A stretch of DNA of 64,000 bases. Source: Amphiplicatus metriothermophilus (GTDB lineage: Bacteria; Pseudomonadota; Alphaproteobacteria; Caulobacterales; Parvularculaceae). The stretch covers positions 571,501 through 635,500 of the forward strand of contig NZ_FZQA01000002.1 of NCBI RefSeq assembly GCF_900199215.1, in the 5' to 3' direction. Below the pieces are notes generated by a model. The model searched no databases. It was not told where the DNA came from and saw nothing but the letters and a program-made list of their open reading frames with translations. Each line of letters begins with the position of its first letter. The stretch's first letter is position 1. This document shows, piece after piece, positions 40,102 to 61,687 of the stretch. The position numbers and the translations under genes were made by a program.

Positions 40102-40329
40102 CTATTCGCGCATCTGAACTTTACGGGTGGGACCATGATAGTCCGCCACCCCTTGCGCTAAGGCGTAACAGGCCAGCCGCACCGCCAGAGGAATCTTGAC
40201 CTTTTCGCCGTCGCGCTCGCCCTTTTCGTAGTACTGGATCATGCGCCGCTTGAGGCCGAGGGCGTGCGCTGCATCCTTTTGGGACAGCTTTAGGGACTTT
40301 CGCCATTTCTTGAAGTCCGCCGGCTCCAT
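40102..40329 (-). CDS. Small helix-turn-helix (XRE-like) DNA-binding protein
   Basis: The ATG at 40329 (75 aa) is preferred; an ATG five codons further up is possible. 'DFKKWRKSLKLSQKDAAHALGL' and 'MIQYYEKGER' form an XRE-type HTH (about 4-40); the last 30 residues form a basic tail. It is likely a stand-alone regulator. It is divergent from the tmRNA gene, about 120 bases away, and convergent with the DUF4153 gene. Targets are unknown. Confidence 0.78.
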   Translation of the reverse strand: MEPADFKKWRKSLKLSQKDAAHALGLKRRMIQYYEKGERDGEKVKIPLAVRLACYALAQGVADYHGPTRKVQMRE

Positions 40330-40449
40330 GATCCCGCCCTGCATGACGCGCCCGGCGCGGCGCCAGCGCATTTAATGCACGGAAGTTGTTACAGTCGTTT
40401 GACAGAGGCCGACTTTTTCCGGGGCGCCCTTCAAAAACCGCCGTTCAGG

Positions 40450-40800
40450 CGTTACATAGGGAGCGCCGGTTTCGGCCGGCTATGGCGATAAAGGACTCGT
40501 GCAATAAGCGCATCGGACCCGGGGGCGGTACCCGGCGGCTCCACCAAAGCCTCTCCCCGTCTGCGGCCGGGGGATTTCGGCGGGGCCGAAATAGGATCGA
40601 CGAGCGTGTAAAGACGAGATCTTCGCCCGGATGGCCTCCGTTATTGGGCCGCTCCAAATAGTTGCCAACGACAACTATCGGGAAGAGCTCGCTCTCGCTG
40701 CGTAATGCGGCTGAGCTGCTCGCTTTGAAGTCCTAGCCCCCTTCCAGGGCCAGGCGGGGTTCGGGAGCACCTGGCAACAGAAGCTCCCACTTTCATCTCG
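40450..40800 (+). ncRNA. ssrA: Transfer-messenger RNA, circularly permuted two-piece form
   Basis: The acceptor piece comes first: CGGCTCC (40536-40542) followed by ACCA ending at 40546. The coding piece starts with GGGGCCG (40582-40588); the two form a perfect 7-bp acceptor stem with one G-U pair. A T-arm stem CCGGG/CCCGG (40519-40523, 40531-40535) adjoins it. The proteolysis tag is read at 40664-40702 as ANDNYREELALAA and ends at TAA (40703-40705). A hairpin GGGAGC/GCTCCC (40763-40788) lies near the 3' end of the coding piece. The permuted layout is typical of alphaproteobacteria, where the piece between is removed. The outer ends are approximate. It rescues stalled ribosomes with SmpB; the next gene encodes SspB, which binds this tag. 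Confidence 0.93.
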
Positions 40801-40994
40801 CGGCTGTTGGTTTGGGATCGCCTCTCCTCGCGGGCGAAAGGACAAGGCTATAAGCGTTTCCCCTCGGCGCAGACATTCTGTCCGGCGGGACATGACGAAG
40901 CGGTCATTTTTCGCAAGCCAGCCGCCTGACAAAACCGCAAATGCGGTCTAGGTATTTCTGCAGACAGCCGATACTAGGCGTTGGGGATCAGTCC

Positions 40995-41474
40995 GTGAGC
41001 GACGTCGAAATCGATTACGAATATCTGACCCAGAAGGCGCTCAAGGGCGTGTTGCGAGACGTTCTGGAGATGACGCGCGAATTGGGCGAGCCGCCGGGCG
41101 AGCATCATTTCTACATTGAGTTTCTCACCGACGCGCCCGGCGTCGAGATTCCGGACTTCCTGCGGGAGAGCTATCCCGAACGCATGACCATCGTGCTGCA
41201 ACACCAGTTCGCCAATCTCGCCGTCTCCGAGGAGGCGTTCGAAGTCACGTTGTGGTTCAAGGGCCGCGAGGCGCGCCTGCGCGTGCCGTTCGAGGCGGTG
41301 GCGAGCTTCGCCGATCCGAGCGTGCAATTCGGGATGCGTTTCCTAGCCCCCGCCGAAGCGCGCGAGGCCGAGCAGCCTGAATCCGCAGCCCCTGCGCCTG
41401 ACCCCGATGAGACGAAAAACGCTGCGGACGCCGGCGCCGAGGTGGTCAGCATCGACGCCTTCCGGAAGAAATAG
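40995..41474 (+). CDS. sspB: ClpXP adaptor SspB (alphaproteobacterial type)
   Basis: The GTG at 40995 (159 aa) is chosen because it begins directly with the conserved 'VSDVEIDYEYLTQKALKGVLRDVL'. The SspB core covers about residues 8-125: 'FYIEFLTDAPGVEIPDFL', 'MTIVLQHQFANLAVSEEAFEVTLWFKG' and 'RLRVPFEAVASFADPSVQFGMRF'. A disordered acidic linker (about 120-148) ends in 'EVVSIDAFRKK', the short C-terminal peptide that docks on ClpX. SspB delivers ssrA-tagged proteins to ClpXP. It lies about 200 bases downstream of the tmRNA gene, on the same strand. Confidence 0.93.
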   Translation: MSDVEIDYEYLTQKALKGVLRDVLEMTRELGEPPGEHHFYIEFLTDAPGVEIPDFLRESYPERMTIVLQHQFANLAVSEEAFEVTLWFKGREARLRVPFEAVASFADPSVQFGMRFLAPAEAREAEQPESAAPAPDPDETKNAADAGAEVVSIDAFRKK

Positions 41475-41563: not shown

Positions 41564-42955
41564 ATGACCAGGACACGCACTGAAACCGACAGCTTCGGCC
41601 CTATCGAGGTTCGCGCCGACCGCTACTGGGGCGCGCAGGCCGAGCGCTCGCGCAACAATTTCAAAATCGGCTGGGAGAAGCAGCCCGCGCCGATCGTGCG
41701 CGCGCTCGGCATCGTCAAGCGCGCCGCAGCCGAAACCAACATAGCGCTGGGCAAGCTTGACCCCAAGCTCGGCGAGGCGATCGTCAAGGCCGCGCAGGAG
41801 GTGATCGAAGGCAAGCTGGACGACCATTTCCCGCTGTCGGTGTGGCAAACGGGCTCCGGCACGCAATCGAACATGAACGCCAACGAGGTGATCGCCAACC
41901 GTGCGATAGAGCTGCTCGGCGGCGAGATCGGCTCGAAAAAGCCGATCCATCCTAATGACCACGTCAATATGAGCCAGTCGTCGAACGACACCTTTCCGAC
42001 GGCGATGCATATTGCGTGCGCGGAGGAAATCCATCGCCGCCTACTGCCCGCCCTGCAGAAGCTGCGCAACGCGCTCAACGACAAGGCGCAGGCCTGGAAA
42101 GACATCATCAAGATCGGCCGCACGCACACGCAGGACGCAACGCCTCTCACCCTGGGCCAGGAGTTCTCCGGCTACGCCAAGCAGGTCGAGAACGGGATCG
42201 CGCGCGTCGAGCAGACCCTGCCGGGCCTGATGGAGCTCGCTCAGGGCGGCACCGCGGTCGGCACCGGCCTGAACGCGCCGAAAGGCTTCGCGGAGATGGT
42301 CGCCGACAAAATCGCCGCAATCACACAGCTTCCTTTCAGGACCGCGCCTAACAAGTTCGAGGCGCTCGCCGCCCACGACGCCATGGTGATGAGCCACGGC
42401 GCGATCGCTACGGTCGCAGCTTCTCTCTTCAAGATCGCCAACGACATCCGCTTTTTAGGATCGGGTCCTCGCGCCGGCCTTGGCGAGCTCGCCTTGCCCG
42501 AGAACGAGCCCGGCTCATCCATCATGCCGGGCAAAGTCAATCCGACCCAGTGCGAAGCTATGACCCAGGTTTGCGCTCACGTCATGGGCAATAACGCCGC
42601 CATCGTCTTCGCCGGCAGCCAGGGTCATTTCGAGCTCAACGTCTACAATCCGATGATGGCCTACAACTTTCTTCAGTCCGTGCGCCTCATCGCCGACGCC
42701 GCCGTGTCGTTCACAGACAATTGCGTCGTCGGCATCGAGCCGCGCCTCGACAATATAAAGGCCGGCGTCGAGCGCTCGCTAATGCTGGTGACCGCTCTCG
42801 CCCCCCATATCGGCTATGACAAAGCCGCAGAGATCGCCAAGGCCGCCCACAAGAACGGCACGACTCTCAAGGAAGAGGCCGTCCGTCTCGGCTACGTCGC
42901 GGCCGAGGACTATGATCGCATCGTGCGCCCCGAGAAGATGATCGCGCCGGAATAG
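41564..42955 (+). CDS. fumC: Fumarate hydratase class II
   Basis: The 463-residue TCA-cycle enzyme interconverts fumarate and malate. '[13 protein letters not shown]', '[11 protein letters not shown]', '[20 protein letters not shown]' and the lyase signature [13 protein letters not shown] are all present. Length is standard for class II, which uses no iron-sulfur cluster. The ATG at 41564 follows an AAGG. A 90-base gap after sspB suggests a separate promoter. Confidence 0.98.
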
Positions 42956-61217: not shown

Positions 61218-61294
61218 GGCGCGCACCATAACCGGCCGCTGCGCCTTGGCAATCCGCGCCTGCACTCGGCTCTCTCCTGCCCCGCATGAAGAAA

Positions 61295-61687
61295 GCGTCG
61301 GACGGCCTGTAAGCCGGGTTCTGTCCCTCTCGCGAGGGGGCGGCCATTCCTCTGGGGCGCGCGCTTGCGCGCGGCCTCTAGCGACCAACCCGGACCGCTC
61401 GGGGCGGAGACGCCCCTGCCTTTCGGCGCGCGGTCCCTACGCGGTCTTGCTCCGGGCGGGGCTTGCCATGCGCGGCTCATTGCTGAGCCGCCGGTGCGCT
61501 CTTACCGCACCTTTTCACCCTTGCCCCGGCGAGCCGGGGCGGTTCGATCTCTGTGGCGCTTTCCCTCGGCCCGCCCCGAAGGGCGGACCGGCCGGGCGTT
61601 ACCCGGCGCCCTGTCTCCGTGGAGCCCGGACTTTCCTCGAGCAGCGACCCCAAGGCCGCGGCCCGCGGCCGCCCGGCCGTCCGACGC
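61295..61687 (-). ncRNA. rnpB: RNase P RNA, class A
   Basis: Read on the minus strand, the gene begins GCGTCGGACGGCC and ends with its exact complement GGCCGTCCGACGC, which form the 13-bp P1 helix (61675-61687 with 61295-61307). The 5' part holds GAGGAAAGTCCGGGCT (conserved region I) and the 3' part ACAGAACCCGGCTTACAG (region V); these two are near-universal in bacterial RNase P RNA. The length of about 393 bases fits the alphaproteobacterial form. It matures tRNA 5' ends together with RnpA. Confidence 0.96.

Follow-up and report, generated by a model that had tools for sequence, protein, structure and literature searches.

The permuted tmRNA gene (ssrA) of Amphiplicatus metriothermophilus and the gene for SspB, the adaptor for ssrA-tagged proteins, lie on the same strand of the window (the 64,000-nucleotide stretch of DNA analysed here), with 206 nt between the last tmRNA stem, which ends at 40788, and the sspB GTG start codon at 40995; this gene order is an old, class-wide arrangement in alphaproteobacteria and is ordinary for its group. 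By our own arithmetic, the chance that a given gene of a 3.16-Mb genome lies on the same strand and no more than ~250 bp downstream is ~4e-5. We consider it probable that the pair in the window, with SspB as reader of the tag and with sspB transcribed in a manner that depends on lineage, represents an ancestral alphaproteobacterial ssrA-sspB unit. The features of the locus are listed in Table 1.

Table 1. Features of the ssrA-sspB locus, in window coordinates.
Feature	Position	Strand	Basis
Small HTH_3 protein, divergent, upstream of ssrA	40102..40371	-	PF01381, 33 bits
ssrA, permuted two-piece tmRNA gene, precursor	40426..40796	+	ARAGORN; Rfam RF01849, RF04321
CCACCA closing the acceptor (tRNA-like 3') piece, which comes first in permuted ssrA	40541..40546	+	Direct sequence reading
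Intervening sequence of ssrA (probable extent)	~40547-40581	+	Boundaries placed as in known permuted tmRNAs
Coding piece of ssrA, GGGGCCGAAATAGG (probable start)	from ~40582	+	Boundary by analogy with known permuted tmRNAs
Tag reading frame ANDNYREELALAA, including stop	40664..40705	+	ARAGORN, gene positions 211-252
Terminal stem GGGAGC/GCTCCC (40763-40788), then ACTTTCATC	40763..40797	+	Sequence; terminator-like tmRNA 3' end
ssrA-sspB spacer, 206 nt	40789..40994	+	Consensus scan and -35/-10 matrix scan
sspB, adaptor for ssrA-tagged proteins, 159 aa, GTG start	40995..41474	+	PF04386
SspB C-terminal tail VVSIDAFRKK, presumed ClpX-docking	41442..41471	+	Similar tail in relatives
fumC, class II fumarate hydratase, gene after sspB	41564..42955	+	TIGR00979, 766 bits

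ARAGORN finds one tmRNA in the window, in permuted form (40454-40796) and with the tag ANDNYREELALAA followed by a stop codon. The Rfam alpha_tmRNA model RF01849 matches 40426-40791 over its full length (positions 1-355; 264 bits against a cut-off of 50, E 1.2e-75), this being its single match in the genome, and RF04321 matches inside the gene at 40484-40705. The acceptor piece precedes the coding piece, and the tag read by ARAGORN has an LAA or LAA-like end, as in alphaproteobacterial permuted tmRNA. The permuted transcript would be processed to a two-piece tmRNA, which would add ANDNYREELALAA onto stalled proteins. The HTH_3 protein encoded upstream is 73-83% identical to proteins located just upstream of ssrA in loci L142, L143 and L144, and an HTH_3 gene adjoins ssrA in 3 of 80 named loci (best 80 of 586), all near relatives; the protein could be a regulator at the ssrA promoter. 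Elsewhere in the window, a class A RNase P RNA gene occupies 61294-61684 on the minus strand (247 bits).

The downstream reading frame (40995-41474) is identified as SspB by PF04386 (143.4 bits against a cut-off of 27, E 7.6e-42), while an NCBIfam search assigned the protein to no family. An alternative in-frame ATG occurs at 40941; the start at 40995 is kept as GTG in sister genomes G291, G305, G320, G325 and G340, and the same-genus genome G344 has TTG at the matching position. The closest named loci, among the best 80 of 586, belong to Marinicaulis, other Parvularculaceae and an alphaproteobacterial MAG, at 55-62% identity. The protein ends in EVVSIDAFRKK, and a similar tail is found in 79 of 80 named relatives (best 80 of 586); by analogy with E. 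coli SspB, we take VVSIDAFRKK to be a ClpX-docking tail. SspB would bind the ANDN end of ANDNYREELALAA and pass the tagged protein to ClpXP via this tail. SspB-alpha of Caulobacter crescentus and its relatives (Lessner 2007, as cited in a passage of PMC3985003) belongs to the same protein family, and presumably has the same role; the SspB-alpha structures 2nys, 2qas and 2qaz are the PDB relatives of the window protein, whereas our subject is the gene neighborhood.

The original prediction placed ssrA about 200 bases upstream of sspB on the same strand, which the measured spacer bears out, and the adjacency on which it turned proves to be conserved across alphaproteobacteria. Of 80 named SspB loci, which are the best-scoring of 586, therefore lean toward close relatives, and overlap the genome sets described below, 66 carry a same-strand tmRNA upstream of sspB in the flank that was fetched (59 placed by ARAGORN and 7, namely L141, L144, L150, L170, L176, L182 and L184, placed by Rfam where ARAGORN failed or misread the gene). 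The other 14 of the 80 show no upstream tmRNA in that flank (L145, L146, L156, L160, L164, L174, L183, L194, L195, L196, L200, L201, L205, L208), and in two of these the flank is short (1250 nt in L156, 189 nt in L196). A set from the order to which the window belongs, complete for its 60 genomes, all of which have both genes, places tmRNA at most 600 bp upstream of sspB in 30 genomes and 601-12,000 bp from it with order and strand unchanged in 19; in the remaining 11 it is farther than 12 kb, on the opposite strand or on another contig, one of the 11 having a gap of 12.2 kb and some lying at contig ends. Our search of the class covered 289 genomes, with tmRNA in 275 and SspB in 266. Because the class tables hold the best 150 matches for each gene, the 105 genomes found among the best matches for both are skewed to high-scoring genomes; the two genes are at most 600 bp apart in 80 of them and up to 10 kb apart in another 16, with a different arrangement in 9. 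In the class, order and 97-locus sets, a gap is the distance between the end of the tmRNA model match and the start of the SspB profile match rather than the start codon, and the gap of 210 recorded for the window in the 97-locus set derives from a hand-set, out-of-frame start. In g221, a genus of the same family, the genes are linked in 0 of 4. That ssrA and sspB are kept together across the class indicates that their adjacency is not chance.

A rival reading is pure positional inheritance, with ssrA and sspB as ancestral neighbors under no selection for a shared transcript, sspB always having its own promoter, and, in tight genomes, that promoter overlapping ssrA where genome compaction has shortened the spacer. 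We hold this to be quite possible, albeit on the unlikely side. It is favored by the stability of a wider block, since 47 of 80 named loci have thyA upstream (46 of them on the other strand) and 28 of 80 have fumC after sspB in the same orientation (both among the best 80 of 586), but it sits less easily with the 19 of 60 order genomes that retain order and strand despite a gap of 0.6-12 kb.

The pairing is more than chance and has a plausible functional reason. ANDN opens the tag in 93 of the 97 loci fetched with the two genes on a single contig; 80 of these come from 84 tags read by ARAGORN and 13 from a search for ANDN codons, which can find ANDN only, so that the count without those 13 loci is 80 of 84. 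The exceptions among the 97 are ANNN, ANSN (twice) and ARVDNDN. ARAGORN tags of the named loci, a set that overlaps the 97, start with ANDN in 58 of 59, the exception being ANSN in L158. Genomes with an unlinked sspB likewise have ANDN in all seven tags read (G034, G089, G096, G142, G223, G310, G335), with no ARAGORN tag for two others (G300, G315). In L175 (4104-4531) the tag carries ANDN twice, ANDNVSTVAANDNVFVEAGEKIAA.

Lineages without SspB have mostly lost this tag start. In the order of G039, where several genomes are incomplete (55-97%), SspB was found in 0 of 18 genomes, and 0 of the 14 tags that were read start with ANDN (they start with ANDD, ANND, AKSD and AKRD); in the order of G083, for which 20 of 27 new loci were put through ARAGORN, the corresponding counts are 0 of 40 and 0 of 23 (loci L259-L272 and L275-L301 represent these two orders). 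Tags in the latter order have nine residues, for example ANESYALAA and ANDELALAA. The SspB-less family f28 has ANDN in 1 of 3 (ANDN, AKNN, ANNN), and family f117, also without SspB, in 0 of 1 (ANQN, in G115). The SspB-less total is ANDN in 1 of 41 across four lineages, within which genomes are not independent. Excluded from the 41 are five genomes that have a tmRNA match but no SspB: G157, G170 and G047, which gave no ARAGORN tag, and G068 and G231, whose tmRNAs are not permuted (ADDN and AEDN); a motif search found ANDN in G170, which appears to have no SspB in a fragmented assembly of 320 contigs, and its inclusion would make the count 2 of 42. An ANDN tag is kept without SspB in G025. Eight genomes have weak SspB matches, and ANDN occurs in four of them (G079, G143, G172, G195), family f89 having ANDN in 0 of 3 and G262 having ANNY. 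The small genomes of family f89 (L248, L249, L250) carry long, basic tags of 23-30 residues alongside their weak SspB matches. The PF04386 searches for SspB absence included a positive control, and absence was rechecked in 23 genomes by a second profile run without one. Since ANDN is kept with SspB, linked or not, and mostly lost without it, we infer that the adaptor maintains that end of the tag; the pattern of tag sequences suggests that the ANDN end would be kept by SspB and the LAA end by the protease.

How sspB is transcribed appears to differ between lineages, beginning with the length of the spacer. Distances, measured from 2-3 nt past the last tmRNA stem to the sspB start codon, have a minimum of 22 nt and a median of 118 in 57 loci, of which 13 fall at 22-40 nt, 11 at 45-99, 26 at 100-599 and 7 at 600 or more. 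These are 57 of the 59 ARAGORN loci, L175 and L211 having been dropped because they have no 3' motif; the L209 distance, taken from a false motif, nonetheless exceeds 600 nt, and the L188 figure of 141 is questionable, the ARAGORN end giving 296. Eleven of the 13 tight loci have only 22-31 nt (e.g. Microvirga L166 and L169, Camelimonas L219, Alsobacter L147). A published coding piece of mature S. meliloti tmRNA (214 nt, as given in a passage of PMC2873474), when mapped on the related locus L159, ends 9 nt past the stem in a C/T-rich tract, and the same rule leaves ~16 nt from the tmRNA end to the sspB ATG in Microvirga L166. A spacer of 22-40 nt is too short for a promoter plus leader, so sspB transcription in those loci must start within or upstream of ssrA; co-transcription, or else a promoter within ssrA, is all but unavoidable there. 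With sspB ~25-43 nt from the stem, transcription would get to it either by reading through from the ssrA promoter or from a promoter located at least partly within ssrA. Positional inheritance is correspondingly weakened by these 13 of 57 spacers, in which the start of sspB transcription depends on ssrA DNA.

Longer or interrupted spacers are where sspB would have, or could have, its own promoter. Mean promoter z is 1.04 for 29 longer named spacers, 0.66 for the region upstream of ssrA and -0.26 for the interior of sspB, so these spacers resemble the ssrA upstream region and exceed the sspB interior, a point in favor of positional inheritance. In the window spacer a consensus scan recognized no promoter, and the best site for a -35/-10 matrix (CTGACA-TAGGTA) reaches z -0.88 relative to shuffled sequence; a control on the region upstream of ssrA fails too (z -0.47), so this null result in the window says little. 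Aligned sister-genome spacers have no visible block in common apart from the end of the tmRNA and the start of sspB. Ten Rhizobiaceae-type spacers have some recurrent blocks, including AAAGAC(A/G)GG just before the start codon.

The 3' end of the tmRNA gene looks like a terminator built into its last hairpin. T is enriched after the last stem (0.79 at position 3 and 0.74 at position 4, falling to a background of 0.20), and at least 5 T occur in the 9 nt after the stem in 45 of 89 loci versus 180 of 3000 control windows, where the 89 are the loci out of 97 in which the stem could be placed, and the controls come from spacers of at least 120 nt, gene-bearing ones included. A standard terminator scan of the window, which permits loops of 3-8 nt, did not call this stem, whose loop is 14 nt. 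The last stem and T-rich tract would end most transcripts.

If a single ssrA promoter served both genes everywhere, with sspB reached only via read-through, then such a tract would be an awkward feature. An operon of this kind would account for the identical order and strand of all 66 linked named loci (best 80 of 586) and for the very short spacers, and it is compatible with five loci in which only same-strand genes were found among those scanned between ssrA and sspB (L083, L089, L150, L199, L207). The genes adjoining sspB on the same strand in these loci encode an M19 peptidase (L083), a chromate transporter (L089 and L199), a protein kinase (L150) and an RTX-repeat protein (L207); in Mesorhizobium L177 a TetR gene adjoins sspB on the same strand and an MFS gene lies on the other. 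However, in seven split loci scanned, sspB is immediately preceded by an opposite-strand gene, encoding cytochrome P450 in L065, L068, L069 and L082 (in L069, with long frames on both strands, the strand was assigned from the P450 match), decarboxylase/aminotransferase-like proteins in L079 and L086, and LytTR in L073. Where opposite-strand genes occupy this position, co-transcription is not needed and sspB would have to use a promoter of its own, which rules out a general operon and supports positional inheritance; the unlinked pairs in g221 also tell against an operon everywhere, and we judge it improbable.

Spacing argues for a transcript common to ssrA and sspB in lineages with 22-40-nt spacers, and the opposite-strand genes and the unlinked g221 pairs argue against one as a general rule: co-transcription is likely in certain lineages and excluded as the rule for all. 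In the window, with its 206-nt spacer, both read-through and a separate promoter are possible, and we lean toward partial read-through combined with a weak promoter of its own. Encoding tag and reader at one locus might conceivably help to balance their amounts, as the original prediction proposed. A more specific proposal, which we make tentatively and think rather unlikely, is that of a dicistronic ssrA-sspB RNA in which the last hairpin and U-tract form a leaky terminator; a single promoter would then serve both genes, and read-through would set the ratio of tag to reader. If this were true of Microvirga-type loci, with their ~16 nt gap, tmRNA 3' processing would also generate the adaptor message.

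Variation in the spacer could in principle have another origin, namely integration at the ssrA 3' end, with linkage varying as mobile elements arrive and are lost. The spacers of G302, G311 and G340 (loci L072, L030 and L054, respectively) contain a duplicate of the tmRNA 3' hairpin, with a weaker, diverged copy in G305 and 14-15-nt matches to the tmRNA 3' end in G003 and G261. Yet the three unambiguous copies are 46-97 nt away from the tmRNA rather than adjoining sspB and amount to 3 of 97 loci, the tmRNA 3' end has no second copy in the window, and no integrase was found among 20 proteins scanned from 16 split loci (chosen long ORFs, not every gene), which are transporters, P450s, regulators and the like. 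An integration site is thus a very improbable explanation, and with so few 3'-end copies among the 97 loci and such ordinary proteins among the 20 scanned, we reject mobile elements as a general cause of spacer variation.

A tmRNA gene beside the gene for a protein partner has a parallel in E. coli, where ssrA is linked to smpB and sspB is in an operon with sspA. The ssrA-sspB unit resembles ssrA-smpB systems in having a partner alongside, but the partner is a proteolysis adaptor, not SmpB; likewise, E. coli SspB belongs to the same adaptor family, but its gene sits with sspA whereas that of the window sits with ssrA. In passages of an earlier study (PMC2245857, 2007), both flanks of alphaproteobacterial tmRNA genes are described as conserved, and the functional link is called uncertain because smpB is not nearby (it is 1.1 Mb from the tmRNA gene in S. 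meliloti), ssrA-smpB linkage being noted outside alphaproteobacteria; the section of that study on tmRNA flanks (section 11) does not name sspB. A passage of another report places S. meliloti ssrA between SMc01449 and SMc01450 (PMC2573895). Within the open-licence literature, ssrA-sspB linkage is named in no title or abstract opening that we found.

The conserved gene order, described in print as functionally uncertain, becomes here a plausible functional pair. Tag binding around the adaptor-less lineages, and transcripts at loci with 22-40-nt spacers, are cheap places to test it.
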